Shown: one piece after another, positions 446 through 19,684 of the stretch
How the letters are laid out: every line of letters begins with the position of its first letter
Position numbering within the stretch: the stretch's first letter is position 1
Source: Dyella sp. RRB7
GTDB taxonomy: Bacteria > Pseudomonadota > Gammaproteobacteria > Xanthomonadales > Rhodanobacteraceae
DNA: 64,000 bases
Direction of reading: 5' to 3'
Assembly (NCBI RefSeq): GCF_022761115.1
Contig: NZ_JAKWJS010000004.1
Location: 1-64,000, forward strand
Made by a program: the position numbers and the translations under genes
Notes under the pieces: model-generated
Database searches by the model: none
What the model was told of the DNA's origin: nothing
The model's input: the letters and a program-made list of their open reading frames with translations, nothing else

Positions 446-1393
446 TCAGCGATTTAGGCGTGAGTATAGTTTTCTGGCCGCAAAAAAAAGCGTAACGCCG
501 ACAATGTCCATAAGCACATGCACAAGTCTGGAGGCGATGGCCACTTCGGCCATCAGTTCCGCGCCAGGGGTTGATGCGAGCGTCTTACCGAGTAGGTAGA
601 AGACAAGCTCTCGGATACCGATGCCGGCAGGAAATACGAAAGCTAGAACCCCGGCTACCCATGCAAGCATCAGGGACACAGTCAGCGGTAGTGCTGCTGT
701 GTAGTCGATATTCATCCCTAAGGTGAGGAGTATATAGCTGCTGGCGGTTGGGAGTACCAACATTCCCGTGCTCAGCGCGATCGATCGCGGCAGCGAAATG
801 CATTGAGCCTCTGGATAAGCATGGTGCAAGGTGCGATATCGCGGGATTAGCCGGATCAGCTGCTGAACGACTGGTTGCCAGTCCTTCCTAATGAGCCAAG
901 TGCCTATTGCGACCGCGACGACCGCAATGAACATGGCGCCAGCGTTACTTACCGTGTGCGCTAGTAGGACGACTGCTGCACTACCGCAAAGCCAGCAGCT
1001 GATAATCATCAACTCCACGTTCGACATGATCGTTGCTGTCGAAGCGCGTGGCCCGGCAAGAATGGACCGCTGAATGAGCAGGGCGGCTATCTGGCCTGGA
1101 ATGTACTTCGCTAGCTGTGAGTAATAGTAGGCCGAGATTCGGCGTTCGAAAGAGATCGATGGAGCCGACTTGGAGACCATGTCGCTGAATGCTATGGCAA
1201 CGATAAGGTTGCCAATGACACCGACCGTAACTGCCGCCAGGGCGCCACACATATCAAAGTGGCTTTTCAGAAGGGCTGGGTCACGAAGCAACTGCGACAG
1301 AAGCCAGGCCATGAAACCGAAACCCAAGATAAGTCCGCCGACTCGCAGCCAATGCCACCAGGATTTGCGTGTTTTGGATCGCTCAGTATTCAT
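446..1393 (-). CDS. LPG-synthase-TM / YbhN-type integral membrane protein
   Basis: A 315-residue polytopic membrane protein of the lysylphosphatidylglycerol-synthase transmembrane family (UPF0104, YbhN-like). The family hallmarks seen are QLAKYIPGQ around residue 90 and PAGIGIRE near residue 265, among about seven or eight hydrophobic helices. The soluble MprF catalytic half is absent, so it is a stand-alone membrane domain. Such proteins commonly accompany glycosyltransferases and are suspected of moving or modifying lipid-linked substrates; the exact role is unknown. It is last in a minus-strand run after a GT-C-like gene (61-bp gap), so co-transcription is likely. The start is the first ATG; no strong ribosome site is evident. 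GC is lower than in the housekeeping half of the window. Confidence 0.75.
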   Translation of the reverse strand: MNTERSKTRKSWWHWLRVGGLILGFGFMAWLLSQLLRDPALLKSHFDMCGALAAVTVGVIGNLIVAIAFSDMVSKSAPSISFERRISAYYYSQLAKYIPGQIAALLIQRSILAGPRASTATIMSNVELMIISCWLCGSAAVVLLAHTVSNAGAMFIAVVAVAIGTWLIRKDWQPVVQQLIRLIPRYRTLHHAYPEAQCISLPRSIALSTGMLVLPTASSYILLTLGMNIDYTAALPLTVSLMLAWVAGVLAFVFPAGIGIRELVFYLLGKTLASTPGAELMAEVAIASRLVHVLMDIVGVTLFFAARKLYSRLNR

Positions 1394-1454
1394 ATGTGGC
1401 GATGTTGCTGCTCGATTGCCAGTGCGTCGATCAATGCGTTCCGGGGTGAGGGTG

Positions 1455-3509
1455 TCATTTGGACTCGCCAGATGACATGAGCTGGCCTTTGAGCACTTTC
1501 AACCTATCGTCCAGATAGCCTCCGATGTTTAGGCGTTCGAGTTCGTTCAATTGCCTATGTGCTTCATCGAATCTTCGTTCTGACACAAGCATGTGAAATA
1601 GAGTTATGCGATATGCAGTTTCGGTTGGAGCTTCCTTGATCGCGGCAGACATCTCTTGCTTGCCCAGTTGGATGTCTGCGAGCTGGTTCCACGCGAATTC
1701 ACCGTAGGCGGCCAGTATGCGTGCGCTAGGGTCAGGGTGAGCGATAGCTGCCTCAAACGCTCTTTTCATGAGGGGCCTGGGAAGATCACATTGGTTTTCG
1801 CGCATGCAGTTCATTAGTGCAATCAGCGAGCTTTCGTCCTGTATGCTTGGTTTTCTGGAACCTAGCTTCGCAATCATGCTGTTCCACCATGTTTCTTCAA
1901 TGGGCATATGCATTCGCGAGTTCATGAAAATCAGCGCTTGCTGCGGCAGGATGGAAGACTTGGGAAGGCTCGCGGCCTTCTCAAGCGGCTCATAGGCTAG
2001 TCGGGTATAGGGTGAGCCAGGGTCATAATTGGAATAGATGATATATGTGCGCCCCAGTTCATACTGGGCGCGTGGTGATTCCGGTGCCCGGTTTGCCAGC
2101 TCTTTGGCGAGGCGCAGGGGTTCTCCCCAGGCATATGCGGTCGCGGCAGTCTGCCACGTCCACCAAGCCATCAGTAGAGTGATTGGCAACAGGGCCAATC
2201 CATGAGTCAGCCACTCATGGGGGCGCAATACTGTACTTTTGGCGTGTTGTCCTGTCGCTTGTGTGAGCGGCAAAGGCGTAATGACTGGCACGACGGCAAG
2301 CAGCAGGCCAAGGCTGGCGAAGTAATTGCGATGTTCGTAGATAAGCTCCAGCGGCAGGATAGTGCCAGTCAAAAGATGGCTGCCGATAAAAAGTGCGATA
2401 CCCAGCGCGGCGATGGGATGCCTGGGCCGAAGCCAGATAACAGCGGTCGTGAGAGCGGCTAGGCAGACGATGCCCGCCATTGTGGTCCATGGCGCCAGCA
2501 GCCCGGTCGAGACGTCGAAGTCGTCATGATAAAACGATAGCTCATGTGGGGTGGGCACCAGCGTCCAAAGTATGTAGTCGATGATGACACGTGCTTCGCT
2601 GAGTAATCGCGTGGCCATGGTGAAGTCGCGGGTCGACCACACCTTGGGCTTCAGTAGTTCGGGTAGGAGATAGCCAAGGCCAGCGAGCAGAGGAAGCACC
2701 AGGATCACGACAAACATCGCAATGAGGCGATGGTCCGTTGCCGGTGATGTACCAAGTGGAGTGTTGGAGGCGTGGTTTCGAAAGTCGAACAGGCACCACT
2801 CCAGCAGTAGTGCATAGAGCGGCAGCATCACTGCCGTTTCCTTGGCCATCACCCCCAGGCCCGCAGGAAGCGTGATGCTTGCCAGGCACAGCAGAAATCC
2901 AGGAGAGAAAAGGCGCCCATTCGCCTCGCCAAGTATGACGCGGCGGCCGTGGATATAGCCGATCAGCCCGGCGAGTACGAAGAGATTGGCTAGGCTCTCC
3001 ATTCGCTGTACGACGTAGAGCACGGCGGTAAGATTGATCGGTAGTAGCAGCCAGGCAGTTGCAATCAGCAGAGCCAACAATGTGGCGCGTATGTTTTGCG
3101 CAGAGTCCGCGGGATTTGCCATAGTCCAGGGCGCCACGCACTGAAGTAACGCGCGGACGAACAGGAAAACCAGCACACCATTGAGCAGGTGGATGATCAG
3201 GTTCGTCAGCTTCATCCAGAACGGGTCCAGCCTGTTCAGCAGGAAATTGACGGCAAAGGTCAGCGAGGCGAGTGGTCGTTTGAACTCGCTCGATGGCGAA
3301 GAAAGCGCAGCATTGATCAGCGAGGAGACAGTAGCGTCATCAGGCTGGACCCCCTTGTTGTCTACAATATTTGGGTAGTCGTCAAACAGCCAGCCACCGT
3401 GAAGGCCAGGCCAATAGAGCAAGGTGGTAATGAGCAGGGTCAGCGCTAGCAGGCGCCAGCCCGAACGGGATGACATAAAGAAATGCGCCACAAGTTCTGG
3501 AGTCGGCAT
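1455..3509 (-). CDS. GT-C-like membrane protein with C-terminal helical/TPR tail (paralogue 1)
   Basis: A 684-residue protein with about ten or more membrane helices, then a soluble helical tail from about residue 450 (REAPESPRAQYELGRTY-like TPR units). After the first helix comes a periplasmic FDDYP motif with adjacent acidic residues D43-D44, as in GT-C enzymes and eukaryotic TMTC O-mannosyltransferases. Later landmarks shared with the paralogue at 5845-7839 are YVVQRMESL, KETAVMLPLYALLLEW and ELIYEHRNYFASLG. Family knowledge suggests transfer of a sugar from a polyprenyl-phosphate donor to an acceptor outside the inner membrane. The acceptor is not shown; nearby pilins are candidates. Starts at 3509 or 3476 are possible, neither with a convincing ribosome site. 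It could instead be an O-antigen polymerase/ligase-like enzyme. Confidence 0.7.
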   Translation of the reverse strand: MPTPELVAHFFMSSRSGWRLLALTLLITTLLYWPGLHGGWLFDDYPNIVDNKGVQPDDATVSSLINAALSSPSSEFKRPLASLTFAVNFLLNRLDPFWMKLTNLIIHLLNGVLVFLFVRALLQCVAPWTMANPADSAQNIRATLLALLIATAWLLLPINLTAVLYVVQRMESLANLFVLAGLIGYIHGRRVILGEANGRLFSPGFLLCLASITLPAGLGVMAKETAVMLPLYALLLEWCLFDFRNHASNTPLGTSPATDHRLIAMFVVILVLPLLAGLGYLLPELLKPKVWSTRDFTMATRLLSEARVIIDYILWTLVPTPHELSFYHDDFDVSTGLLAPWTTMAGIVCLAALTTAVIWLRPRHPIAALGIALFIGSHLLTGTILPLELIYEHRNYFASLGLLLAVVPVITPLPLTQATGQHAKSTVLRPHEWLTHGLALLPITLLMAWWTWQTAATAYAWGEPLRLAKELANRAPESPRAQYELGRTYIIYSNYDPGSPYTRLAYEPLEKAASLPKSSILPQQALIFMNSRMHMPIEETWWNSMIAKLGSRKPSIQDESSLIALMNCMRENQCDLPRPLMKRAFEAAIAHPDPSARILAAYGEFAWNQLADIQLGKQEMSAAIKEAPTETAYRITLFHMLVSERRFDEAHRQLNELERLNIGGYLDDRLKVLKGQLMSSGESK

Positions 3510-3796
3510 CGACTGGGATGGCAGCAGCTTACAGCGTTCGGCGCATCGTTCCAGCCTTTAGGTTTGGCTCGCTTGACACAAGTTCAGCCGTGGCTAGGTT
3601 GTTAAATGGACCAGAGCAGCTTACAGCAGGCTAGCTTTGGTTGGACCGAGGCGGTTGAACACTGGGTCCGCTGTCCTGAGGTTCGGGGTGTGCGGCCTCC
3701 TTTGTGTGGCCACAGGAATCTTTCATGGCCCGTACGGTCCGCGAGATATCTGATGGAGTCGTATTCGCTCTGTCAGTTCCATCTAGTTTATGCACG

Positions 3797-5521
3797 CTAC
3801 AATTTGCCCGCCGGACATTTAAAATCGACTTCAACCTGCTCGATTTCATTAGGTAGTCGTGGATGTACAGATAACAAGCTATTGTTCGGGCGGTTGCCAT
3901 CTACGGTGATCCCAGCCAGATCAGTCATGGTTTCAAAAAACATATCGGTCGAAGCTAGCATGTCCCGCCGGCTCTGCATAAGAGATACCTTGTCCTGATT
4001 CAACTTCTTATAGAGCGGCGAAGGCCAGAACAAAGCTGCGGGGTGTTGAGTCGCTTTTGAAAACTGTCCATGCCCGCTCTGCATGCGGCAGTCATCAAAA
4101 AGGGCCTCGCCGTGATCTGAAGAATAGAGTAGCCAGCTTTCCATGTTCTCATGCCTGGCAAGTTCGTTAATGAGACTGCTCAAGACATGGTCTGTGAAAA
4201 GAATGGTGTTGTCATAGCCGTTGATCAGGACTTGCTTGTCATTTCGATTGAATAGTTGTGCCTGAGTACCATTCGGATCGTCGGGAGTGAATTTTGCGAA
4301 CGTCCTCGGGTATCTGTCGGTATAGCGGAAATGGCTGCCCAATGTATGGATGACGACAAAGTTGTCTTTTTGATTGGGAGCATCAATGAGCTGCCGCAAC
4401 TCCGCGACCGCTGCATCATCGTGCTTGCCCTCATAGCGATAGTCCACAGGATTCAAGAACCGAACATCATCTGATTCGTAGGCATAAGTTGAAATGGGGG
4501 AATCGTGAAAACCTACCGGCGCCTGGAGCGAAATCCAGGAGGTTCGAAATCCTGCTTGCTTGAATACGGTGACGATGGAGGCCTCTGCAAATGCAGGGCT
4601 GGCTATCGTACTTGGCTTGCGGCTGATCATCAGGGGTACCGCCAAGCGTGTAAAAGGCCAGGGCGTATACATCCGTTTGAATGACACTACATCACCACGC
4701 TGCGAGAGCTCCGGAGTGGTGTCTCGCTGATAGCCGTTTAGGCCCCAGTGGTCTGCACGCGATGTTTCGCCGATGACTAGTACGTAGAAACGTCGATGAC
4801 CATTCGTTACTGGTGGGTGGACCGTAAATCTGAAGTCCTTGTCTCTGGAGATTGCGGATACCAATGCTCGCCGTTCGTTTAGAAAGCTATATATGACCCA
4901 GGGGAGCCCTGTGGGATAGGTTGCTTCAATGGCTTTATCTTGGCCTCGTTTTTCCATAGGAAATACAGGTGTCGATGCTTGTGCACCGGAATTGTCCATG
5001 GTGGGTAGCCCTGCGATACAGGTAATGGCGATCCATGTGATCACGCTATAGACCAATAGGCGGGGTCTCCATAGCCGGTTATAAGCGCGGCTTTCTGGCC
5101 ATGCCAGATAGCCGAGAATGGCCGGAAGGGTGAAGCTCAGCAGCAGAAAAGAAGGCAGGGAGCTGAAGAAATCCGATGCTTCAGCACGATTGGTTTCTAG
5201 CAGTAGGGAGATCGAGTTGGCATCGAATGTCCAGCCATATTCACGGATGAATGCAACCTCTCCTATTCCGATGATTGCCAAGATGGTTAAAACGGTGACG
5301 ATAAGACGGGGAAGGCGGCTGTATGCCGCAGTCAAGACAAAGAGACTCAGAAAGGTGCTGCTGAGGATGACCGTTGTTTGATCCCATTCGAGAGACTGCG
5401 CTTTTTTAAGTGCCAAGGTGAGAGAAGGGAGTGCGCATACGCTCGCCAGGCCAATGAGAGAGGGCAATCTGACATAGCTGCGTCTCGGTGGGGCGTCTAT
5501 ATAGAAGCTATCGATCGACAT
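3797..5521 (-). CDS. Phosphoethanolamine transferase, EptA/sulfatase family
   Basis: A 574-residue inner-membrane enzyme with five N-terminal helices and a periplasmic alkaline-phosphatase-fold domain. Metal and catalytic landmarks of the pEtN-transferase family are present: GETSRADHWG (E252), the nucleophile context PFTRLAVPLMIS (T291, correctly spaced from E252), HTLGSHFRYTDRYP, and SDHGEALFDD with a following GHG. These enzymes move phosphoethanolamine from phosphatidylethanolamine to lipid A, core sugar, osmoregulated glucan or, in Neisseria PptA, pilin. The acceptor here is unknown, and its place between two GT-C-like genes beside pilins leaves pilin open. Other in-frame ATGs at 5554 and 5569 are possible starts; 5521 was chosen as the one just before the conserved membrane part. 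Confidence 0.85.
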   Translation of the reverse strand: MSIDSFYIDAPPRRSYVRLPSLIGLASVCALPSLTLALKKAQSLEWDQTTVILSSTFLSLFVLTAAYSRLPRLIVTVLTILAIIGIGEVAFIREYGWTFDANSISLLLETNRAEASDFFSSLPSFLLLSFTLPAILGYLAWPESRAYNRLWRPRLLVYSVITWIAITCIAGLPTMDNSGAQASTPVFPMEKRGQDKAIEATYPTGLPWVIYSFLNERRALVSAISRDKDFRFTVHPPVTNGHRRFYVLVIGETSRADHWGLNGYQRDTTPELSQRGDVVSFKRMYTPWPFTRLAVPLMISRKPSTIASPAFAEASIVTVFKQAGFRTSWISLQAPVGFHDSPISTYAYESDDVRFLNPVDYRYEGKHDDAAVAELRQLIDAPNQKDNFVVIHTLGSHFRYTDRYPRTFAKFTPDDPNGTQAQLFNRNDKQVLINGYDNTILFTDHVLSSLINELARHENMESWLLYSSDHGEALFDDCRMQSGHGQFSKATQHPAALFWPSPLYKKLNQDKVSLMQSRRDMLASTDMFFETMTDLAGITVDGNRPNNSLLSVHPRLPNEIEQVEVDFKCPAGKL

Positions 5522-5844
5522 ACAGTGCAGCCGAGATGAGTGAATTTGTAGCATGCCGATGCATGACATGGTGCTTGGCGGGGATATCGGGAAGCCTGCA
5601 ATGTTCGATGCGCCAATCCATCTTGCAAATTCGAGGTGGCGTCGGTGCAATGACGGACCAGAATGTGGCGGGATAGATCGGCATGGCTTACTTTATCGTG
5701 GGCGAGACACGTGATGATTAGGGACTTGAGTCGTCCGCTTTCTAGCTGGACCATCCCGTCGCGTATCGTGGAAATATTCCCAATAAGGCGGATATAAAGG
5801 ATAACCGGCGTACACGCGCGATGGTTCGGACCTGGTCTTATGTT
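5522..5844. other. Intergenic gap
   Basis: Sequence between the end of the second GT-C-like gene and the phosphoethanolamine transferase gene. Short ORFs on both strands look random. It must hold the translation start region of the transferase. I see no clear terminator, repeat or RNA gene. Confidence 0.5.
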
Positions 5845-7839
5845 TTATTGACGCCTGCCTCCGTTGACTTCATGTGCCGATTGGAGCGGCCCAGCCGAGA
5901 GTTGGGAGGCGGCTAGTTCCTTTGTGGCCTTGCTTTGCATGGTGAGCAGCGCAGCATCGCTGCGCAGCGTGGGCTGCAACTGCCAGGCTTGGGCGATTAC
6001 CGCTTGGGCTTCCTGATATCGATGGTTTTCCAGCAGGTAGCTAGCGAGCTGTCGGGCGTATCCGGCAACGTCCTTGTCGAGTCGCAGCGCCTGCTGCCAG
6101 TGCTGGATAGCCAGGTTGGTGTCGTGCAACACCGCACCACCAAGCTCCGCATAGCTTGCATGCAGGTTGGCTCGGGCGGGCACGCGTTTAATGACGATTT
6201 CATAGGCACGCGCCAGCTGCTGGGCGTCAATATCTGTTTTTCCCTGTAGGCGCTCGGTTGTCAGCTTGTCCAGGGCGAGGTAAGCCTCTGGACCTAGCGG
6301 ACGGTTTCTCAGCTTGTCGAAAAAACTTTCCCAAAGCGCAGGAACATCTGGTTGATCGTGGTGTTCTGCATTGACGAGAAGCAGGGCTTCTTCCGCCATG
6401 GGCGAGGCGCTGGGTAGCGTAGTTGCCCTCCTCAGCTCCTTGATGCTGAGCGAATAGAGCGGTGAGCTCGGGTTGTTCTGTGCCATGAACATGTAGCGCC
6501 GTGCCAAATCATAAGCGGCGCGAGCGGAGCCTGGGTTGTCATCGACCAAGTTTTGCGCCAGCAACAATCTGTTTCCCCAGATAGAAGAGCGAATAAAGGT
6601 CAGTAGGCCGAAGTTGAGCACCAATATGCCGGCGATCAGCACGATGACGCGCTGGTCGGCGCAGCGAGTAGAGAGCCATAGCAGATCGGCCAATGCCAGC
6701 AATATGCCGAAGAGTGCTGGGTAATTTCGGTGTTCAAACACCAGCTCCAAGGAAATTGGCGCACTGGTCAGGCCGTGGGCCACAAAGAACCAACCTATGC
6801 CAAGGGCGAGCAGGGGGCGACGTTTCCGCATGGCGACAACCAAGGCAACAAGGCCAATTAGAAACAGGCCGCCGAGTAGGGTAGTGATGGGGTGTAGCAG
6901 ATCTTGAGAAGCGGGGTAATTGTCGTAGTAGAAATGCAACAGGTTCGGCAGCGGCAGCAGTATCCAGCCTATGTACAGCGAAAGTACGCGAAGCTGGGTC
7001 AGTTCGCGCTGCCAGGCGTTGTAGTTGCGTGCGGCGTAAGCCGCATCGGTGGTGTAGTGCGGCAACAGGTAGAACATGAAGACCAGCGCCGCCAGTAGGC
7101 CTCCGCCGAGGTAGGTAATTTTCCAAGCGCGGCGGGTAGTGGACGCCTGAGCCGAAAAATGCAGCAGGGTCAGCTCCAGCAATAGGGCATAGCCAGGCAC
7201 CAGTACGGCGGTTTCCTTGGCGTAATAGCCAATCACCGTCAGCATGGCGCACAAGCCAAGCCAAGGCCAGGCGCGATGCCCTTCCATTTGTCGGCGACGC
7301 GCGCGCCAGTACGACAGCAGCGCAAGCAGCACGAATGCAAAGCCCAGCAACTCCATGCGCTGCACTACGTACATCACGGCGGAAACTTGCAGTGGATGGA
7401 TGGCCCACAGTGTTGCGATACCTATGGCCCAATAACCCGTAACGCGCCGACGTTGATGCTCGGCTTCGGAGTTATTGGTTGATGTCCAGCCTACCTGCAG
7501 TAAGCGCTGAGTTAGCATCATCAACAGAATGGTGTTGAACAGATGAAGCGCGAGATTGGTGGCCTTGAACCCCCAGGTGCTGCCTCCCCATGCGTAGTTC
7601 AATGCAAAGCTCAACATTGCAATGGGGCGCTGTATGTTGATGCGTGACCACCCCCATACCTGCTGCAGGTCGTGCCAGTGCCAGCTACCGACGTGAATGG
7701 CCGGGTTCTCGGCAAAGATCGGATAGTCGTCAAAGATGAAGCCACCGGATAATGCGGGCCAGAACGAAATAAGAGCAACGCCCAGCAGGCCAAGAGTGAG
7801 CAGCATCGGGTATGTAAGGGGCCGGAAATGTAGCCGCAT
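5845..7839 (-). CDS. GT-C-like membrane protein with C-terminal TPR tail (paralogue 2)
   Basis: A 664-residue protein, clear paralogue of the protein at 1455-3509. It has FIFDDYPIF (D37-D38) after helix 1, YVVQRMELLG, KETAVLVPGYALLLE and ELVFEHRNYPALFG among the membrane helices. The C-terminal third holds repeated helical pairs (ARAYEIV, HASYAELGGAVLH, AIQHWQQALRLD), which look like TPRs. The start at MRLHF was preferred because the longer frame would run through the terminator and into the pilin gene. It lies 104 bp downstream of the first pilin gene, with a strong hairpin between them, so it may be expressed by read-through or its own promoter. Inferred role: sugar transfer at the periplasmic face, with pilin as candidate acceptor. 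Confidence 0.72.
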   Translation of the reverse strand: MRLHFRPLTYPMLLTLGLLGVALISFWPALSGGFIFDDYPIFAENPAIHVGSWHWHDLQQVWGWSRINIQRPIAMLSFALNYAWGGSTWGFKATNLALHLFNTILLMMLTQRLLQVGWTSTNNSEAEHQRRRVTGYWAIGIATLWAIHPLQVSAVMYVVQRMELLGFAFVLLALLSYWRARRRQMEGHRAWPWLGLCAMLTVIGYYAKETAVLVPGYALLLELTLLHFSAQASTTRRAWKITYLGGGLLAALVFMFYLLPHYTTDAAYAARNYNAWQRELTQLRVLSLYIGWILLPLPNLLHFYYDNYPASQDLLHPITTLLGGLFLIGLVALVVAMRKRRPLLALGIGWFFVAHGLTSAPISLELVFEHRNYPALFGILLALADLLWLSTRCADQRVIVLIAGILVLNFGLLTFIRSSIWGNRLLLAQNLVDDNPGSARAAYDLARRYMFMAQNNPSSPLYSLSIKELRRATTLPSASPMAEEALLLVNAEHHDQPDVPALWESFFDKLRNRPLGPEAYLALDKLTTERLQGKTDIDAQQLARAYEIVIKRVPARANLHASYAELGGAVLHDTNLAIQHWQQALRLDKDVAGYARQLASYLLENHRYQEAQAVIAQAWQLQPTLRSDAALLTMQSKATKELAASQLSAGPLQSAHEVNGGRRQ

Positions 7840-7870
7840 GAGCTTGACTCTTGTTGTTTTCGTGGATGTC

Positions 7871-7904
7871 AAAAGGCGAGGGCCGCCATGGTGGCGGCCC
7901 TCGC
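7871..7904 (-). terminator. Rho-independent terminator after pilin gene 1
   Basis: A 13-bp perfect stem (arms 7876-7888 and 7892-7904, loop TGG), followed on the minus strand by TTTT. It lies 40 bp past the pilin stop codon. It would let the pilin message greatly outnumber that of the GT-C-like gene behind it. Confidence 0.85.
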
Positions 7905-7943
7905 TGATCCGTAACAAGGATTCCTGTCCGGAATTGCTACAGC

Positions 7944-8399
7944 TTAGCCACCCGAGGCGGCAGCAGCGGACGGACAGCTGGCCGGGGCGTATTTCGCCAC
8001 CACGCCAGGGGCGGAGCAGGTCCAACCACCGCTCGCATTGCGGGTCCAGACGATGGAGCCGCCGTTGAGAGCAGAGTTGGCATGGTTACCAAAGGTGCCG
8101 GTGATGGTGGCGGTCTGCCCCCAGGAACCAACGGTCGGATGTCCATTATTGCCCGAGAGGAGGTCGGAGGAGGTGCTGGTGTCGACGCAGCTGGCCGGGC
8201 TGCCAAAGGTGGTTGCACCGGCGTTGAGGCAGTCCTCAACGGCAACCTTCATGTCGCCGGTTTCACCAACCACGCGGGTGACCTGCGAGCGAACGACGTA
8301 GGTCTGGTATTGCGGAATAGCAATGGCCGCCAGGATCGCGATGATCGCAACCACGATCATCAGTTCGATAAGGGTGAAGCCCTTCTGTGCATTCTTCAT
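7944..8399 (-). CDS. pilA: Type IV pilin (major pilin-like)
   Basis: A 151-residue prepilin. The short leader MKNAQKG is cut before F by PilD, and E5 of the mature chain and the hydrophobic N-terminal helix ([24 protein letters not shown]) are intact. The C-terminal part has the disulfide-loop cysteines (WTC...APASC) and a small-residue tail PSAAAASGG. Such subunits assemble into the pilus used for twitching, adhesion and DNA uptake. AGAGGA precedes the ATG; a longer frame to 8600 has no leader peptide. A sigma-54 type promoter lies about 125 bp upstream and a strong terminator follows. A second pilin gene is immediately upstream, so this is a tandem duplication with strong divergence after the N-terminal helix. 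Confidence 0.9.
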
Positions 8400-8523
8400 G
8401 GTGGTTCCTCTGTTTTGGTTAGCTAACCGTAGGTTGTGCCCCTGAGCCCCGGTCCCGTACCCCCTAGGCGGATCCGGTCCCCCACAATTGTCGTGGAACG
8501 ACCAGGAAACTCGTGGCAGTTGC

Positions 8524-8539
8524 AGCATCTTGTATGCCA
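8524..8539 (-). promoter_or_regulatory. Sigma-54 promoter for pilin gene 1
   Basis: Read on the minus strand: TGGCATACAAGATGCT. The GG and GC dinucleotides are 10 bp apart, as required for the -24/-12 elements bound by RpoN, and TGGCA and TGCT match consensus. pilA promoters are RpoN-dependent and PilR-activated in Pseudomonas and Xanthomonas relatives. The expected start is near 8513, giving a leader of about 110 nt. Confidence 0.7.
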
Positions 8540-8733
8540 CTACTACCTCTGGCAGGCCCCTGCCCGCAGGCAGGTGGTGGGATTGTGCAGGGGTTGGCAC
8601 TAAGCAACAAGCCGGACGCTGGACTGTCTTGCCATTACTGCGGATCGGGTCTCGTGGGAATAGTGCGTCTCGTCGCTGGTGCGACCATGGTGGTCACGTG
8701 ATGACATTTTTGGTCACCTTTCGACTCCGTTGT

Positions 8734-9165
8734 TTAGCTGCTGACGCAACTTGCGGGCAGGTATTTAGGATCTACATTCGAGACGCAGGACCATTGCCCG
8801 GAAGTATTACGGTTGAGCTGAATGTATCCGCCTGGTGGCAGAATGCTGTTCTGCAATGCACAGTTGATGTAGCCGGCGCCATCCACAGGGGTGATGGCTG
8901 AGATCGTGGAACAGCGAGACGTCTGAGATGCAAGCCCCAGGTTGTCTACGTTTGCGTAGACGGCACCGTTGGTAGTGCCCTGGTTGACTAGGGTTTCATA
9001 TGCGGTTCGTCCGGGATCGATCTCTGCCAGGGCAGCCGTCATTTGCGCGCGCACCATGTAGGTTTGATACTGCGGAATGGCGATAGCCGCGATGATGGCG
9101 ATGATGGCCACGACAATCATCAACTCGATAAGCGTAAAGCCTGCGTTGAATCGCGGGCGTGACAT
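8734..9165 (-). CDS. Type IV pilin, second major-pilin-like gene
   Basis: A 143-residue prepilin with leader MSRPRFNAG, then [16 protein letters not shown] and the conserved E5. Cysteines near the C-terminus (QWSC...LPASC) form the expected disulfide loop, and the chain ends VSS, with serine as the last residue. In group I pilins of P. aeruginosa a C-terminal serine is the O-glycosylation site (TfpO/PilO); by analogy this tail is a possible acceptor. GGGGGGAG stands before the ATG. Its own sigma-54-like promoter lies 37 bp upstream. Compared with the neighbouring pilin, the N-terminal 50 residues match closely and the rest differs, as usual for pilin alleles. Confidence 0.9.
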   Translation of the reverse strand: MSRPRFNAGFTLIELMIVVAIIAIIAAIAIPQYQTYMVRAQMTAALAEIDPGRTAYETLVNQGTTNGAVYANVDNLGLASQTSRCSTISAITPVDGAGYINCALQNSILPPGGYIQLNRNTSGQWSCVSNVDPKYLPASCVSS

Positions 9166-9201
9166 GGCAAGCTCCCCCCAAGGTATGTCGGGGACGAGCG
9201 C

Positions 9202-9217
9202 AGCAGCTTTTGTACCA
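9202..9217 (-). promoter_or_regulatory. Sigma-54 promoter for pilin gene 2
   Basis: Minus strand reads TGGTACAAAAGCTGCT, with GG and GC separated by exactly 10 bp and the TGCT of the -12 element intact. The predicted start near 9191 leaves a leader of about 26 nt before the ATG. Having a separate RpoN-type site for each pilin suggests independent control by PilR or another enhancer-binding protein. Confidence 0.7.
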
Positions 9218-9607
9218 AGACCGAAGGGTTATGTCAGGGTCGGCCTGCATCGATCAAGATGGCGCAAGAATTTGTGATACCCGTCACGGCTAGGATTGGA
9301 TTTCCGACACGCCATTGATCCATCGCTTCATCACCGAGGTTGGAGCGTTGGCAGCGCCTTCATGCCGTAGAAGGAGAAGCGCTCCCATATCTTGGTTAGA
9401 GGAACAGACGTACAGACCTTGGGGGCATGCTGACCCCGGTAGCAGAGGGGGCAACGGCTGTCGCGGTGGCGTCGATCATGGGTACTGCGGTGGGGTATAG
9501 CTGCGCCTCATCTCCCTCCCCGCCCGGGTTGGAAGGGGGTAAGAGCTTGCGCCGGGCCGCCGCGCCTCTTACCGTCAGCGCACTCGTAGCACCCAGGAAA
9601 CCCCCCG
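9218..9607. other. Divergent intergenic region, pilin 2 / S9 peptidase
   Basis: Holds whatever enhancer sites serve the pilin 2 promoter and the promoter of the peptidase gene. An 8-bp inverted repeat (GGTAAGAG/CTCTTACC) lies near 9537-9574. No further gene, RNA or mobile sequence is recognised; short ORFs here look random. Confidence 0.4.
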
Positions 9608-11710
9608 ATGAAACCCTTGTTTGTCGCGCTGGCGCTCGCGCTGGCCGGAACCTCTGCGGTAGCGGCCGAGGTCGAGAACCACGGCCCGCATCCGTTCAGT
9701 ATCCGTGATCTGGTGATGATGGACCGCGTCGGCGACCCGCAGCTGTCGCCCGATGGCCGTTACGCGCTTTATACCGTGCGCGTCACCGACTACGCGGCCA
9801 ACAAGGGCGTCACCTCGATCTACCTGTTGGATCTCGACAAGGGCGGCGATCCGGTCAGGCTGGTCGACAAGGCCTCCGGCCCGCGCTGGGCGCCGGATGG
9901 CAGCGCCTTCTACTACGTGGCGCCGAAAGATGGTGTCGCGCAGCTGTGGCGTCGTCCGCTGGGTACATCCGGCAAGGTTGTGGACCCGCAGGCCGCGCAG
10001 GCCGTACCGGTGACGAATGCCCCGATCGACGTCGATGGCTACAAGCTTTCGCCGGATGGCAAGAAGGCGTTGTTGACGTTTGGCGTCTTCACCGACTGCG
10101 CCGACCTGGCCTGCACTAAGGAACGCCTGGATGGCCGTGCGGCGGACAAGGCTTCCGGCACCGTCTACGACAAGCTGTTCGTGCGTCATTGGGACACATG
10201 GTCTGACGGTCGCCGCGCGCAGCTCTTTATCGCCGATCTGGACCATGCCGCCGAGCAGCCGGTGCTGCTGACCCGCGGCATCGACGGCGACGTGCCGAGC
10301 AAGCCGTTCGGAGACGATGGCGAATTCAGCTTCTCGCCCGATGGCAAGACGGTTTATTTCGACGTGCGCATCGCCGGCAAGGCCGAGCCGTGGTCGACCA
10401 ACTTCGACGTCTACAGCGTGCCCGCCGATGGTTCCGCCGCACCGCGCAACCTCACGGCAGCCAACCTGGCGTGGGATGCCTTTCCGGTGGCCTCGCCCGA
10501 TGGCAAGACGCTGTACTACCTGGCCATGAAGACGCCGGTGTCCGAGGCGGATCGCTTCGGCATCATGGCGTTGGACCTGGCCACCGGCCAGAAGCGCGAA
10601 GTGGCGCCAAACTGGGATCGCTCCGCCGGCAGCCTGCAGGTTTCCGATGATGGCAAGACGCTTTACGCCACGGCGGACGATAACGGCCAGCATCCGCTGT
10701 TCGCCATCGATGTGGCCACCGGCAAGGTCAGCACGGTGGTGACCGACGGCACCGTCGGCGGCTATGCGCTGGGCAAGTCACACCTGCTGGTTCAGCGCGA
10801 TGACCTCAAGCGTTCGGCCGACCTCTACGTTGCCGACCTGCGCGGCAAGGGCCTCAAGCAGGTTACCCACTACAACGCCAATCGCCTGAAGAATGCGCAG
10901 ATGGGCGACCCGGAGTTCTTCACCTTCAAGGGCTGGAACAACGAGACGGTGCAGGGCTATGTGGTGAAGCCGGTTGGCTACAAGTCCGGCAAGAAATACC
11001 CGGTGGCCTTCATCATCCATGGCGGTCCGCAGGGCGCGATGGAAAACGGCTGGAGCTATCGCTGGAACCCGCAGACCTATGCGGGCCAGGGCTTCGCCGT
11101 GGTCACCATCAACTTCCACGGTTCCACCGGTTACGGCCAGGCCTTCACCGATTCCATTTCGGGTGATTGGGGCGGCAAGCCGCTGGAAGATCTCAAGGCT
11201 GGTTGGAAAGCCGCGCTGGCCAAGTACAGCTTCCTCGATGGTGACCGTGCCTGCGCACTCGGCGCCAGCTACGGCGGCTACATGATTTACTGGATCGCCG
11301 GCGTGTGGAATGAGCCGTGGAAGTGCCTGGTCGATCATGACGGCGTGTTCGATGCACGCGCCATGTACTACGACACCGAAGAGCTATGGTTCGAGGAGCG
11401 CGAGAACGGCGGCACGCCATTCGAGCACCCGGAGAACTACGAGAAGTTCAACCCTGTCAACCATGTCAAGGATTGGCGTGTGCCGATGCTGGTGATCCAC
11501 TCGGCGCAGGATTTCCGTATTCCCGATACGCAGGGCCTGGGCGCATTCACCGCACTGCAGCGTCGCGGTATTCCCAGTCAACTGCTGCATTTTCCGGATG
11601 AAAACCACTGGGTGCTGAAGCCGCAGAACAGCGTGCAGTGGCATGAGACGGTGAATGCGTGGTTGAAGCAGTGGACTTCAGCGGATGCATCGGCAACGAA
11701 ATTGAACTAA
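9608..11710 (+). CDS. S9 family prolyl oligopeptidase / dipeptidyl-aminopeptidase-like
   Basis: A 700-residue exported serine peptidase. A cleavable signal peptide (MKPLFVALALALAGTSAVAA) is followed by a WD40-like beta-propeller (repeated LSPDG and SPDGK blades, residues 30-430) and a C-terminal alpha/beta-hydrolase domain. The triad is visible: S554 in GASYGGY, D635 in SAQDFRIPD and H667 in DENHWV. Such enzymes trim short peptides in the periplasm; acyl-aminoacyl or X-Pro preference cannot be read from sequence. It is the only plus-strand gene in the pilin region and has higher GC than the flanking membrane-protein genes, so it may predate or be independent of them. AGGAAA precedes the ATG and a terminator follows. 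Confidence 0.9.
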   Translation: MKPLFVALALALAGTSAVAAEVENHGPHPFSIRDLVMMDRVGDPQLSPDGRYALYTVRVTDYAANKGVTSIYLLDLDKGGDPVRLVDKASGPRWAPDGSAFYYVAPKDGVAQLWRRPLGTSGKVVDPQAAQAVPVTNAPIDVDGYKLSPDGKKALLTFGVFTDCADLACTKERLDGRAADKASGTVYDKLFVRHWDTWSDGRRAQLFIADLDHAAEQPVLLTRGIDGDVPSKPFGDDGEFSFSPDGKTVYFDVRIAGKAEPWSTNFDVYSVPADGSAAPRNLTAANLAWDAFPVASPDGKTLYYLAMKTPVSEADRFGIMALDLATGQKREVAPNWDRSAGSLQVSDDGKTLYATADDNGQHPLFAIDVATGKVSTVVTDGTVGGYALGKSHLLVQRDDLKRSADLYVADLRGKGLKQVTHYNANRLKNAQMGDPEFFTFKGWNNETVQGYVVKPVGYKSGKKYPVAFIIHGGPQGAMENGWSYRWNPQTYAGQGFAVVTINFHGSTGYGQAFTDSISGDWGGKPLEDLKAGWKAALAKYSFLDGDRACALGASYGGYMIYWIAGVWNEPWKCLVDHDGVFDARAMYYDTEELWFEERENGGTPFEHPENYEKFNPVNHVKDWRVPMLVIHSAQDFRIPDTQGLGAFTALQRRGIPSQLLHFPDENHWVLKPQNSVQWHETVNAWLKQWTSADASATKLN

Positions 11711-11731
11711 TAGTGATAGGTCTCGACAGAA

Positions 11732-11764
11732 AAACAAAGGCGGCCCTGGAGGTCGCCTTTGTTT
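11732..11764 (+). terminator. Terminator after S9 peptidase gene (bidirectional)
   Basis: Arms AAACAAAGGCG and CGCCTTTGTTT form a stem with A-rich and T-rich flanks on both sides. It can therefore end transcription of the peptidase gene and also of the convergent GT-C-like gene whose stop lies just beyond it. Confidence 0.8.
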
Positions 11765-11791
11765 GCTGATGATTGAAATGGCTGAGGCACG

Positions 11792-13501
11792 TTAGTTTGA
11801 GAGGGTTGAATTACTCTGGGATGGTTGGCTGCGTTTGAGCGACATTACTTCCTCCAGAGTGCTTTCCGTCAAGGGGTCTGCCGGTGTGAGTGAGCTTGCC
11901 GCGCGTAACACATTCTCGGCGTCGTCCAATTTCCCTTGGAGGATGAGCATCTGTCCTGTCGTAACGTAATACGTGCTTAGCATCCCCTTGTCCATTAAGA
12001 GAAGAGGGGAACGTCTTGCTCGTTCCAGTGCTATTTCCGCTCGCGTCGAATCCTTATCGTTGACTGCTAGTTTGGCGATCATCAGCATGCAATTGGCGCA
12101 AGGCGCTGGGTCGGCCAGCAGCTGACTTCCCAGTTCGCGGGCGTGGCTGTAGTCCTTATTTTTGATGTACGTATGCAGCAGATTGTCCTTGGCTTGCGAG
12201 GCTTGAGGGTTAACTGCCAGCGCCCAGCGCCAAAGGTTTGTGTCATTTGACCACATCGGCAGGATGATGCGAATGTCGACAATGGCAAATGCAAGCCACA
12301 GGAAGATGCCCGCCGCAAATAGAGTAACAGTCGGCCTTCGTGGCAGCCTCTTGATGGAAAAAGTCCGCGGCCAGCACACAAGAGGCAGTAGGCTGCAAAC
12401 GACAGCCAAAGCGGTTGTTGCATAGCGTTCGTGATAGAGGCTTCGTTCAAAGCTAAGCGGGATCACATGCAAAACAGGTAGAAGTGCCGCAGTTGCCGCT
12501 AAGATGATGCATGCTGTCGATGATGCTCGCTTGATGGCTAAATATAAGCTAGGCAAGAAGATGCCGAGGGCCAAAATGTCGGTAAGAATCGACTGGACTG
12601 AGATGAACGTAAATGGTTGGACATCTAGGGGATGGATCGGACTCATCCCATAGATGGGCCAAACCATTGTCCTTAGATAGCGCACGTAAACAAAACAGGC
12701 TTCCTGCAGGTGCGCAATGAAGGAAGCGGCGGGTGTGTCGCTATTGAAGGGATTTTTGATGCCTCCAAGTGCCCAGTGGCGAAAACAGAGGTAGATAATT
12801 CCCGCCAGGAACATACCTGCATACGCAATCCAGTTTCGGTGGAGAAGTGATCGGAAAGACGCTGGCATGCTTTCGTTCGATTTCCGTGCAAACAAAACCC
12901 AGTCGGTAATGACGACCAATAGAGGGAGAGAAACGGCGGACTCTTTGGAGCAAGCGGCCAGGAAAAAGATTGCTGTAAGTGTCGTTGCGCGAATCAAGTC
13001 ACGCCTGATTGATACATTCGCAACTAGGCCAAGCAAAACCAGCATCGTTGTGACAAGGTCAAACTGGCAGCCGATCCAAGCTACCGGCTCGATTAGCGCG
13101 GGATGCAAGCCGAAGAGGGTCATGCAGCCGGCCATCGTCCACATCAATCGATTGCCGTTGCCCTCCATCATTTTGCCGCAACGCCACGACAACGTCCCGA
13201 CCAGAAGTGTATTGATTAGGTGTAATCCAAGCGATACCGCATGCATCGGTCCTGGTGCGCTATTAAAAAGTCGAACCTGCAGGGTCAAGAAGGCAACGAC
13301 CAGTGGTCGGAAATAGAGTTCCCAGGAGTTGAAGTCGCGGAAGATATAGTGCTTCCATTGGTCTCCCTGGGTGAGCCACGGTGTGTCGTGAAAGCTCGGC
13401 CAGTCATCCCATACAAAGTCGGCGTGGACGACAGGCCAATATATAAAAGCGGTTACTACGAGAATTATGGCGGCGATGCCGTATCTTAGCCTGTTGTGCA
13501 T
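11792..13501 (-). CDS. GT-C-like membrane protein, TMTC-type (paralogue 3)
   Basis: A 569-residue polytopic protein with DFVWDDWPSF (D32-D33) after helix 1, EPVAWIGCQFD, KESAVSLPL and ERSLYHERYATTAL. All are landmarks of GT-C O-mannosyltransferase-like (TMTC/DUF1736-like) proteins. A short helical tail from about residue 430 carries weak TPR-like units. It is more distant from the other two GT-C-like proteins here than they are from each other. GGGGAG precedes the ATG. An IS5-family element inserted 105 bp upstream may have cut it off from its native promoter. Codon use and AT content (many ATT, AAA, TTG codons) differ sharply from the neighbouring peptidase, which suggests acquisition by transfer. 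Confidence 0.7.
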   Translation of the reverse strand: MHNRLRYGIAAIILVVTAFIYWPVVHADFVWDDWPSFHDTPWLTQGDQWKHYIFRDFNSWELYFRPLVVAFLTLQVRLFNSAPGPMHAVSLGLHLINTLLVGTLSWRCGKMMEGNGNRLMWTMAGCMTLFGLHPALIEPVAWIGCQFDLVTTMLVLLGLVANVSIRRDLIRATTLTAIFFLAACSKESAVSLPLLVVITDWVLFARKSNESMPASFRSLLHRNWIAYAGMFLAGIIYLCFRHWALGGIKNPFNSDTPAASFIAHLQEACFVYVRYLRTMVWPIYGMSPIHPLDVQPFTFISVQSILTDILALGIFLPSLYLAIKRASSTACIILAATAALLPVLHVIPLSFERSLYHERYATTALAVVCSLLPLVCWPRTFSIKRLPRRPTVTLFAAGIFLWLAFAIVDIRIILPMWSNDTNLWRWALAVNPQASQAKDNLLHTYIKNKDYSHARELGSQLLADPAPCANCMLMIAKLAVNDKDSTRAEIALERARRSPLLLMDKGMLSTYYVTTGQMLILQGKLDDAENVLRAASSLTPADPLTESTLEEVMSLKRSQPSQSNSTLSN

Positions 13502-13602
13502 CTTCTCCCCGGAGGCTTTATTTGATTGTGATAAAAATGCGGCGATCCAGCCTGTATCCGACTGGCTCAGATATGTACATGTGCAGAAATGGTTCTCCTA
13601 CC

Positions 13603-13606
13603 TTAG
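13603..13606. repeat. Target-site duplication TTAG (partner 14760-14763)
   Basis: TTAG stands directly outside both ends of the IS5-family element, matching the YTAR target preference and 4-bp duplication of the IS5 group. An intact duplication means the element arrived by simple transposition without later rearrangement. Confidence 0.9.
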
Positions 13607-14759
13607 GGATGCTCTGAACTAATCACATTCGACGCATCACCCTGCCTGCATGAGCATACGTCGAGATCAAAATGGCTGCGCCATAGGGCGGATGGGTGCG
13701 TGCCCTCACTAGGGCCGTGGCCTTCATGTCAACTCCAGCAGTCGGCGCCGCGCCATCCACACGTTCGACAACGCAAACAGCATCAACACCTGCCCTGTGT
13801 TTTTTGCCAATCCCCGATAGCGCACCTTCGTATAGCCGAACTGTCGCTTGATCACTCGGAACGGGTGCTCCACCTTCGCCCGCACCGCGGCCTTAAGGTA
13901 TTCCACGTAGCGCGTGGCGTCTTTCAGCTTGCCATTCGGAAGGGCCTTGAGCTCGCCCGGCCTGCTGGCGATGTGCCAAGTCAGCCGGCGCCCGGCTAGC
14001 CCTTCACGCTTGTCCGCACCGGTATAGCCGGCATCACCCCACACGCTCTTTTCCTTGCCGTGCAGCAGGCACTCGGTTTGCGTCACGTCCGCCGCATGGG
14101 CTGGCGTGGTCGTGACGGTGTGTACCAGGCCCGATTCCACGTCCACGCCAATGTGTGCCTTCATGCCGAAGAAATACGGGTTTCCCTTCTTCGTCTGGTG
14201 CATCTGCGGATCGCGCTTCCCGTCCTTGTTCTTGGTCGAGGACGGCGCATGGATGATGGTGGCATCCACAAGGGTGCCCTGGCGCAGCAGCAAGCCTTGC
14301 TTGCCAAGATGGGCGTTAACCGCCTCCAGCAGTTTGCCGGCCAGCTCATGGGTCTCCAGCAACCGGCGGAACTTCAGGATCGTCGTCTCGTCCGGTAACG
14401 CGTCATCGGCCAAGTCCAGCCGCGCAAAGCGACGCATCGACTCGATCTCGTAGAGCGCATCCTCCATGCCTGGATCGCTCAAGGCGTACCACTGCTGCAT
14501 GAAGTGGATGCGCAGCACGGTGCCCAGCGGCATCGGCGGCCGCCCGCGACGGCCTGCCTTGGGGTAGTGCGGTTCGATGATCGCTTCGAGTACCGACCAC
14601 GGCATCACTTGCTCCATCTCCGCCAGGAACACCTCGCGACGCGTGCGCTTCTTTTTGGCATCGAAGGTTAACGAGGCGAACGTGGTTTGCTTCATGGGGG
14701 CACGCGGTTCGATGGGATGACGCTGGGATGCATCATGTGGGGAATAAATCAGAGCATCC
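13607..14759 (-). mobile_element. IS5-family insertion sequence, complete (1153 bp)
   Basis: Both ends read GGATGCTCTGA inward (13607 on the plus strand, 14759 on the minus strand), and similarity extends with mismatches to about 20 bp (AACTAATCAC against TTTATTCCC-like). One intact transposase gene lies inside. The flanking TTAG duplication fixes the boundaries. The element separates corA from the third GT-C-like gene. Confidence 0.92.
13724..14695 (-). CDS. IS5-family transposase
   Basis: A 323-residue DDE transposase starting MKQTTFASLTFD. Visible parts are the DUF772-type N-terminal domain (RRGRPPMPLGTVLRIHFMQQW), the first catalytic D in TLVDATIIHAPSS, the second in VWGDAGYTG, and the E-containing segment VEHPFRVIKRQFGYTKVRYRG. 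All three regions are uninterrupted, so the protein is probably active. The longer frame to 14917 crosses the end of the element and is not the real start. Similar copies are widespread in Xanthomonadales genomes. Confidence 0.92.
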   Translation of the reverse strand: MKQTTFASLTFDAKKKRTRREVFLAEMEQVMPWSVLEAIIEPHYPKAGRRGRPPMPLGTVLRIHFMQQWYALSDPGMEDALYEIESMRRFARLDLADDALPDETTILKFRRLLETHELAGKLLEAVNAHLGKQGLLLRQGTLVDATIIHAPSSTKNKDGKRDPQMHQTKKGNPYFFGMKAHIGVDVESGLVHTVTTTPAHAADVTQTECLLHGKEKSVWGDAGYTGADKREGLAGRRLTWHIASRPGELKALPNGKLKDATRYVEYLKAAVRAKVEHPFRVIKRQFGYTKVRYRGLAKNTGQVLMLFALSNVWMARRRLLELT

Positions 14760-14787
14760 TTAGGAGATACTAGGGGATTCTCGATAC

Positions 14788-15804
14788 TCAGAACCAACGA
14801 GATCGCTTGAGTGCTATGTAAATTGTTACCACCACCCCTATAACCAGTACGATTACTGCCGGATAGGCCCAAGGCTTGCTCAGCTCGGGCATATGCGTGA
14901 AGTTCATCCCGTACCAACTGGTGAGCAGCGTTGGGGCCGCAAGCATAGCGGCCCAGCCGGCGAGTTTTTTCATCACTTCATTCTGGCCAAACGTCACCAG
15001 CGAAAGATTCACGTTGATGGCGGCGGCGAGCATCTCGCGCATGGCGCTGATGGATTCGTTGACGCGAAACACATGGTCGTACACGTCGCGGAAATACGCG
15101 CGCAGTTCATCCGGAATCAGTTGCGGATGCAGGCGCACCAGCTGGCTGATGATGTCCTGCATGGGGGCTACGGCCAGCCGTAGCGTCATCAGATCTCGCT
15201 GCATGTCGTAGAGCCGCCGGATCGTGCTGCGCTTGAACGTGTCCGAGAAAATGTCCTGTTCAAGCTCCTGCAGTTCCTCGCGGAAATCGCGCACGATCGG
15301 TAGCAGGTTGTCCACGATGAAGTCGAGCACGCCATAGAGGCCATAGCTCGGTCCCAGCGAAAGCAGCTCGGGGCTGTGTTCGCAGTTGCGGCGGGCAGGG
15401 GCGTAGGAGAGCGAGGCGCCGTGCCGCACGGTAACCAGGTAACGCGCGCCCAGAAAAATGTGCGTTTCACCGAAGGCGATATGCCCGCTGATCAGCTGGG
15501 CAGTCTGCACCACCACGAACAGCGAATCGCCGTAGGTCTCGATCTTGGTGCGCTGGTGCGCATGCTGGGCGTCTTCGATGGCCAGGTCATGCAGGTCAAA
15601 TTCTTCCTGCAGCTTGCTGAGCAGGGGTTCATCGGGCTCATGCAGTCCCACCCAGACGAAAGTGTCCGGCTGCTTGAGCACCTCGCTGATGTCATCCAGG
15701 CTGATATCGCCGATGCGCTGGCCATCGAAGCGATAGGCCACGCAATTGATCACCATGGATTGGGGTGCGGAGGGATCGGTAGCTGGCGGCGCGGTCAGAT
15801 TCAT
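14788..15804 (-). CDS. corA: Magnesium/cobalt transporter CorA
   Basis: A 338-residue CorA-type channel: a cytoplasmic funnel domain, a long helix, and two C-terminal membrane helices. The signature YGMNFTHMPEL (GMN selectivity motif) lies between the helices, and the chain ends with basic residues (KRSRWF). It carries Mg2+ (and Co2+/Ni2+) inward as a pentamer. The ATG at MNLTAPP was chosen over a longer frame that overlaps the next gene and has low-complexity, non-family sequence. It follows an Lnb-type gene and ybeX/corC on the same strand. The IS5-family element inserted 29 bp after its stop codon. Confidence 0.93.
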   Translation of the reverse strand: MNLTAPPATDPSAPQSMVINCVAYRFDGQRIGDISLDDISEVLKQPDTFVWVGLHEPDEPLLSKLQEEFDLHDLAIEDAQHAHQRTKIETYGDSLFVVVQTAQLISGHIAFGETHIFLGARYLVTVRHGASLSYAPARRNCEHSPELLSLGPSYGLYGVLDFIVDNLLPIVRDFREELQELEQDIFSDTFKRSTIRRLYDMQRDLMTLRLAVAPMQDIISQLVRLHPQLIPDELRAYFRDVYDHVFRVNESISAMREMLAAAINVNLSLVTFGQNEVMKKLAGWAAMLAAPTLLTSWYGMNFTHMPELSKPWAYPAVIVLVIGVVVTIYIALKRSRWF

Positions 15805-15850
15805 GGGCAAATGATGCGCTGCTGCATGAGACAGGGCAACGACAGCAGGC

Positions 15851-17104: not shown

Positions 17105-17130
17105 CGGCGTCCTGCCCGGTTGCGGCACGA

Positions 17131-17979: not shown

Positions 17980-18100
17980 TACTCGTGCGGATGCTGCCCG
18001 TGGACGGGCGGAAGAGTCAGTCTAGCGGAAAATCCGTGACGATTCAGGAACAAGGCCGCAATGGCATTTCCCTCCCCCTTTGGGGAGTGGGGGCTAAAGC

Positions 18101-18568
18101 TCACCTATTGTAGGGATCGGCAATGCCCAGCCCGGCCAGGATGCGTGTCTCCAACGCCTCCATCGCCTCGGCTTCGGCATCCTCCATATGGTCATAGCCC
18201 AGCAGGTGCAGCACGCCGTGCACGGTCATGTGCGCCCAGTGGTCGCGCGCCGGCTTGCCCTGCTCGGCCGCCTCGCGGGCCACCACCGGGGCGCAGATGG
18301 CCAGGTCGCCGATCAGTGGCAGCGTCACGCCGGGGGGCAGCTCGACCGGGAACGACAGCACGTTGGTCGCGTAGTCCTTGCTGCGGTATTCGCGGTTGAG
18401 CGCACGGCCTTCTTCGGCGTCGACAATGCGGATGGCCAGCTCGGTGGCCTTGCGGCGCCTGGCGCCGCGCAGGGCGGCCTCCGCCCAAAGCCGGAAACTG
18501 GCGGGGGCGGGCACGCCCTTGCGGGAAGCGCCATAACCGACGGAAAGCGCCAGGGGCGACGAACTCAT
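18101..18568 (-). CDS. ybeY: Endoribonuclease YbeY (rRNA maturation)
   Basis: A 155-residue metalloenzyme with the zinc site [11 protein letters not shown] near residues 120-131 and the preceding NVLSFP and GDLAI motifs. It takes part in 16S rRNA 3'-end processing and 70S ribosome quality control. The ATG overlaps the stop of ybeZ by 4 bp (ATGA), showing translational coupling. Confidence 0.95.
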
Positions 18569-19551: not shown

Positions 19552-19639
19552 GGGGTCTCGGTAGGTTTTTCTTTGGCTCCTCCCCATGTTTGCAGAGGGA
19601 GGCTGGGAGGGGCATGTTCTGGCGCTTGGAACGTCCTTA

Positions 19640-19676: not shown

Positions 19677-19684
19677 TAGTGAGG

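Follow-up and report, generated by a model that had tools for sequence, protein, structure and literature searches.

The stretch analysed here, referred to as the window, comprises the first 64,000 nucleotides of contig C14 in the genome of Dyella sp. RRB7 (4.08 Mb in 19 contigs). Near its start lies a group of type IV pilin genes and genes for TMTC-like membrane proteins with a predicted glycosyltransferase C (GT-C) fold, here named GT1 to GT3, which we examined as a candidate pilin glycosylation locus. On the minus strand, from position 9165 down to 446, the order is PilA2 (8734..9165), PilA1 (7944..8399, longest open reading frame (ORF) to 8600), GT1 (5845..7839, longest ORF to 8025), an EptA/CptA-type phosphoethanolamine transferase (3797..5650, with further in-frame ATG codons at 5569, 5554 and 5521), GT2 (1455..3509) and a YbhN-type membrane protein (446..1393). 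A terminator-like hairpin, with a 13-bp stem followed by CTTTTG, occupies 7876..7904 on the same strand, between PilA1 and GT1. An S9-family peptidase gene on the plus strand (9608..11710) flanks the system from outside, and beyond it lies GT3 (11792..13501, minus strand), a divergent third family member. The ORFs were as described in a sequence-only reading of this DNA, which had listed two pilins, three GTs, an EptA-type gene, a YbhN-type gene and insertion sequences. The two pilins matched PF00114 (E = 3.5e-18 and 1.6e-19) and, as the sole matches of the genome, are likely to be its major pilins.

Alignment and modelling of the GT family pointed to a sugar-transferase fold. Residues D44, R78, H107, P157, K223 and Y396 were invariant in 73/73 sequences; of the acidic residues in the first periplasmic loop, presumed to be catalytic, D44 was kept in 73/73 and D43 in 71/73. 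The alignment bore out the DD, K-E-T and E-H-R-N-Y landmarks noticed in the sequence-only reading, with EHRxY present in GT1/GT2-type rows and six GT3-type rows aligning differently. A Foldseek search with the membrane domain returned GT-C enzymes in the top rows, followed by a sharp drop. The GT2 model contained a TPR domain at approximately residues 463-684, which aligned to TPR proteins; Pfam gave weak TPR matches in GT3 and TPR_19 in 39/73 members; and the 60 matches listed, of 148, from a profile search of the PDB fell on the C-terminal TPR part. The fold, the TPR-like tails and the TMTC-like architecture (a GT-C membrane domain followed by a C-terminal TPR domain) that had been proposed thus found support. 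No member matched PF08409 (DUF1736, the TMTC model; 0/73 at E 0.01) or PF04932 (Wzy_C; 0/73), a Wzy_C protein beside a pilin in locus L229 serving as positive control for the latter, and the GT-C proteins gave no sequence match to PMT families. As modelled, the family has a sugar-transferase fold, yet it is missed by Pfam.

GT1 and GT2 might instead be catalytically inert helpers of pilus assembly, in the manner of TfpY, a pilin-adjacent protein of Pseudomonas aeruginosa group III that acts in assembly (PMC11841053, cited throughout from the part of its text available). The invariance of the presumed catalytic-site residues and the lipid-sugar synthase that accompanies GT1 and GT2, described below, make this very improbable.

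Relatives of GT1 were found in 132/147 sampled genomes of the bacterial family, in 71/121 genomes of the order at 1e-10, and in 86/274 genomes of the class at 1e-15, the window's genome being included in each count. Sixty loci were fetched from the 132 GT-positive genomes of the family, hand-picked for genus spread, and a single scan supplied a further 80 named loci (best 80 of 576); removal of loci sharing the same GT ends left 121, including the window. Named hosts include Dyella, Rhodanobacter, Luteibacter, Lysobacter, Luteimonas, Pseudoxanthomonas, Solimonas and a Nevskia metagenome-assembled genome. A further 40 distant loci, also hand-picked, comprised 34 from other orders of the class and 6 from the order, two of the 40 being from one genome. 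Because pilins were recognised by a motif or by similarity, their numbers per locus are lower bounds.

A same-strand pilin gene lay within 3 kb in 110/121 loci, with a median gap of 66 bp, and an upstream pilin lay within 3 kb in 32/40 distant loci. Judged by these adjacency counts, the gene grouping is beyond chance. The sequence-only reading had linked the GTs to pilins and had named homologues lying mostly far from pilin genes as the contrary outcome; when this was run, most lay near them. Among the 110 pilin-linked loci, two GTs were present in 91, one in 17 and three in 2, and GT3 was present in 22/121 loci. The position of the cassette seems to be between pilA and pilB.

To compare the descent of these genes, distances were analysed in 51 of the 91 two-GT loci, namely those with the S9 peptidase and two pilins. 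S9 peptidase distances served as the descent marker, a single gene that follows GT2 weakly (rho 0.30). GT1 co-varied strongly with the pilins (partial rho 0.85 for the far and 0.69 for the near pilin; 0/500 permutations, n = 51). Within the larger of the two co-variation classes, the GT1-pilin partial correlations were 0.75 and 0.79 (n = 39), and those of GT2 were 0.21-0.22, reached by 6 and 2/300 permutations; within the window-like class the GT1 values were lower, 0.40 and 0.63 (n = 12). When 109 loci were sorted by GT1 and pilin type, a window-like GT1 occurred with a window-like pilin in 14, neither was present in 92, and 3 were discordant.

GT2 tracked the S9 peptidase (rho 0.30, 1/300 permutations), whereas GT1 did not (rho -0.06). 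A tree built from 245 proteins contained a clade with 120 members (support 0.97) that took in 96/100 distal copies, 18/21 single copies and 6 proximal copies, so that the GT2 type is the distal copy in two-GT loci and also that of most single-GT loci; the 22 GT3 proteins formed a separate clade. Because GT1 tracks the pilins and not the S9 peptidase, while GT2 follows the peptidase and forms its own clade, pilin and GT1 seem to have been exchanged jointly, against the background of a more stable GT2. The lack of correlation between GT1 and the peptidase also means that the pilin-GT1 cassette may itself be mobile.

A gene for an ArnC/DPMS-like polyprenyl-phosphate glycosyltransferase was found in 25/25 loci that include pilB, and in 66/121 loci overall, many of which are cut before pilB. 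It occurred in 34/40 distant loci against 1/12 pilin loci of family-negative genomes (Fisher p 2e-6), although the control loci spanned 12 kb and the positive loci 11-20 kb, so that the contrast may partly reflect length, and the home-made ArnC-like model may admit other family-2 enzymes. In 62/65 cases the gene stood on the same side of the pilins as the GTs, and in 21/40 distant loci it came within 300 bp after a GT. The window's genome has its own copy, for which solved structures gave ArnC (9.9e-18), DPMS (1.1e-11) and sll0501 (4e-7), the last of which we take to be GtrB. With nine matches to this copy in the 4.08-Mb genome, the next best only 29% identical, the gene is unlikely to lie near a pilin by chance.

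In this genome the gene is on another contig. The best pilB match lies on contig C18, 6.3 kb from its end, and ORFs identified by eye and likeness at that end were coaE, pilD, pilC and pilB. In the other direction after pilB, C18 carries genes for a DegT aminotransferase, the ArnC/DPMS-like glycosyltransferase, a methyltransferase, a GT4-type glycosyltransferase, an NAD epimerase and a second methyltransferase. In relatives such as L038, L039, L076 and L077, a single contig holds pilB, glycan genes, a flippase, GT2, the pilins, and the S9 peptidase or its neighbours. Since relatives carry the whole set on one contig, the end of C18 and the start of C14 probably adjoin in the chromosome, the assembly having broken at the transposase gene at 56-358 (HTH_Tnp_1 by Pfam), which lies at the contig end.

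Flippase candidates among the 121 loci were of the Wzx type in 39 and of the YbhN type in 4, never together, and in several relatives a Wzx-type flippase adjoins GT2 where the window has its YbhN-type gene. The window protein (LPG_synthase_TM-like) had no Pfam match; PF03706 was matched by three proteins 25-27% identical to it, and, adjoining GT2, it is a candidate flippase for a lipid-linked sugar. A Wzx-type flippase and GT4 genes could also build the donor for an oligosaccharyltransferase, in which case the GT-C proteins would act like TfpO/PglL, moving a whole oligosaccharide from undecaprenyl diphosphate (Und-PP) to the pilin; the target would be the same and the donor different. The structural ranking does not distinguish oligosaccharyltransferases from PMT/ArnT enzymes, and a MATE-type flippase also serves undecaprenyl phosphate (Und-P)-sugar (PMC11127046, cited throughout from the part available). 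Because the ArnC-like gene was constant wherever its presence could be judged and the flippase was not (15/25 loci with pilB had Wzx or YbhN), an Und-P donor is favoured, and transfer of an oligosaccharide from Und-PP appears less likely.

A terminator-like hairpin 3′ of the pilin was found in 68/110 loci, compared with 14/2200 shuffles, under a rule written after the window hairpin had been seen and with shuffled two-base blocks as the control. The hairpin at 7876-7904 has a short T-run and was not picked up by an automatic terminator scan. Pilin-accessory cassettes are noted for a terminator that follows the pilin and is believed to restrain the accessory gene (PMC11841053), and the window hairpin is placed as in these. 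In the pilins themselves, a terminal Ser/Thr was present in 16/197 and any Ser/Thr after the last Cys in 33/197. With so few such ends, a C-terminal serine sequon of the TfpO/TfpM kind was ruled out as a general site. In this strain such a site is possible, as PilA2 ends in SS and the PilA1 tail contains S.

Taken together, the fold, the conserved residues, the gene linkage, the co-variation and the presence of a lipid-sugar synthase, all computed, suggest a major-pilin locus with its own periplasmic glycosylation, in which a lipid-linked sugar is used by a TMTC-like GT-C enzyme. We put the probability of this reading at roughly 0.7. In the mechanism that we propose, the ArnC/DPMS-like glycosyltransferase would place a sugar onto polyprenyl phosphate on the cytoplasmic side, and a flippase (of the Wzx/MATE type or, here, the YbhN-type protein) would turn the lipid-linked sugar over. 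The GT-C/TPR proteins would then move the sugar to the pilin in the periplasm. GT1 would recognise its own pilin type and travel with it, and GT2 would be a conserved second transferase. We infer here the chemistry, the sugar, the site, the flippase, and a TPR domain that faces the periplasm and binds pilin. The enzyme family thus probably decorates pili with sugars, and on genetic and structural grounds the locus is probably a new form of pilin glycosylation.

Several observations weigh against this reading. The second residue of the K-E pair, E224, was kept in 61/73 sequences, and the Pfam scan of the 73 members gave TPRs only, with no glycosyltransferase match. Foldseek E-values were weak (best 0.005 for the membrane domain), the first rows for the full model were TPR proteins, and hhalign found no homology to two PMT_2 proteins, a weak test with a thin two-sequence profile. 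The co-variation of GT2 with the pilins was slight (partial rho 0.18 for the far and 0.13 for the near pilin, matched in 9 and 17/500 permutations, n = 51; 0.07 in n = 72). Neither GT1 nor GT2 co-varied with the ArnC-like gene or Wzx, though a fixed donor partnership might predict it. The ArnC/DPMS-like count in distant loci fell to 31/40 with a protein length filter, adding to the caveats of length and model given above, and the incomplete presence of a flippase belongs here too. Finally, 11/121 and 8/40 loci had no upstream pilin within 3 kb.

Among these 11 loci, five (L129, L132, L143, L148 and L161) have less than 800 bp upstream, four (L100, L134, L137 and L173) have 1.4-2.8 kb upstream without a pilin, and L149 has an EptA-type gene. 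In L080, a Wadjet-type defence operon (12341-19900; by PADLOC, JetC E 0 and JetA E 9e-217) lies directly 5′ of the GT2 orthologue, at the usual pilin position. Of the distant eight, L187 and L194 are at the edge of a contig, the pilins of L193 are on the opposite strand, those of L218 stand behind the GT, and in L183, L196, L198 and L212 none was seen. A six-frame pilin profile on 12 of the 19 pilin-less loci matched only L193. In three other loci (L104, L135 and L066) the order is split as pilin-GT-pilin-GT, as if there were one transferase per pilin. From the 12 family-negative pilin loci, ten proteins were scanned with Pfam, including three membrane proteins in L226 and L227; six neighbours were pilB-type ATPases and one was a Wzy_C protein. 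In L226 (5874-7550) and L227 (5627-7312), PMT_2-type membrane proteins are encoded on the opposite strand, close to the pilin and to genes of pilB size.

The EptA-type protein matched PF00884 (Sulfatase, 5.1e-43), PF08019 (EptA_B_N, 6e-6) and solved EptA (7e-36). Its gene was present in 5/121 loci; in L035, L106 and the window it is placed between the two GTs; the copy in L106 (8053-9924, Rhodanobacter sp. OK091) occupies the same position and is 35% identical to the window's. In the window's genome, the only match found was the gene itself. Given its rarity among the loci and its single copy, the gene may serve lipid A instead of adding phosphoethanolamine to the pilin, the second of the two chemistries that the sequence-only reading had proposed. 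The presence in this locus of the one EptA-type gene detected in the genome, and the resemblance of the glycan gene sets to O-antigen loci, would also fit enzymes that decorate lipopolysaccharide or exopolysaccharide, the pilin linkage being a mere conserved genomic address. Such an address would not account for the 66-bp median gap to the pilin, the co-variation of GT1 with the pilins, the hairpin arrangement, or a pilin linkage that extends across many families of the class, and we regard this explanation as improbable.

The sequence-only reading had also proposed an island bounded by insertion sequences (IS). Low GC content was indeed found in the genes of the three GTs, EptA and YbhN (51-57%, compared with 64.5% at 17-64 kb; PilA1 62.1%, PilA2 55.1%), and transposase genes do stand on both sides (56-358, and DDE_Tnp_1 at 13724-14917 by Pfam). 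Recent acquisition on flanking IS would explain both features. The boundary did not hold up, however: relatives, including other genera, share the gene order and its S9 peptidase, CorA and Lnb surroundings (of 120 other loci, 48 have CorA and 29 have Lnb). The two transposases of the window, the only ones sought, were absent from these 120 loci, where other IS may be present. GT2 distances moreover follow the S9 marker. An IS-borne island was therefore rejected as extremely unlikely. The DDE_Tnp_1 copy lies between GT3 and the CorA/Lnb genes, which neighbour the locus in many relatives. GT2 had no match in phage and plasmid collections, and carriage on either was rejected, the single plasmid DNA match (6% of the query) being to the S9 peptidase only.

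A broader proposal is that of a widespread, unannotated pilin glycosylation of Gammaproteobacteria (in the GTDB sense), in which GT-C enzymes of TMTC architecture select pilins by a periplasmic TPR domain and are fed by an ArnC/DPMS-like enzyme, and in which the pilin and GT1 pass between species as a unit; it would be a bacterial counterpart of eukaryotic TMTC O-mannosylation. We advance this tentatively, at slightly less than even odds. About one third of the sampled class genomes carry a relative. If the proposal is true, many environmental bacteria glycosylate their pili by an enzyme class outside the known pilin transferases, which could supply glycoengineering with new enzymes and give TMTC chemistry a bacterial model. 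Pilus-specific phages may be affected as well, because pilin glycosylation of known kinds gives protection from them (PMC11841053). In searches of open-access literature, no paper among the matches listed tied a TMTC-like or TPR-bearing GT-C protein to pilins, in keeping with the earlier suggestion of a glycosyltransferase type not described for pili. In the main text of a paper on Xylella pili, as far as available, the term 'glycos' does not occur (PMC9956873).

The system may be compared with several that are known. TfpO/PilO, TfpM, PglS and PglL presumably share its acceptor, and TfpO, TfpM and PglS often lie beside their own pilin (PMC12645811, from the part available). These enzymes carry WaaL/O-antigen-ligase domains, however, whereas no member here matched Wzy_C, and TfpO and TfpM use a C-terminal Ser/Thr that few of the pilins here possess. 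Unlike ArnC/ArnT and PMT systems, the GT-C proteins here lack a sequence match to PMT families. TfpW of P. aeruginosa group IV is of the GT-C type and has a lipid-linked donor. Like the GTs here it is a pilin-adjacent transferase, and it adds D-arabinofuranose (PMC11841053).

Three-component extracytoplasmic glycosylation (GtrA/GtrB/GT-C; the Ribf system, GT136) has a polyprenyl-phosphate sugar synthase, a flippase and a GT-C protein encoded together (PMC11127046); here too a synthase gene accompanies the GT-C genes, and 15/25 loci with pilB have a flippase candidate. Systems of such make-up add sugars to O-antigens, and those described have polysaccharide acceptors (PMC11127046), whereas here the acceptor is probably the pilin and the GT-C protein carries TPRs. 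The eukaryotic O-mannosyltransferases TMTC1-4 (GT-C/PMT clan) differ from the family here, which is bacterial, linked to pilins and without a match to the TMTC Pfam model. The two nevertheless have in common a GT-C membrane domain with TPR repeats C-terminal to it and, in part, the motifs DD in loop 1, K-E-T and E-(H)R-x-Y (PMC7801869, from the part available). Of the TMTC motifs M1 (DD), M4 (KE) and M7 (ERxxY), DD and K are kept here, E224 in 61/73 sequences, and GT1/GT2 rows have EHRxY. TMTC1-4 act on protein acceptors, as the family here would, its acceptor being presumed to be the pilin.

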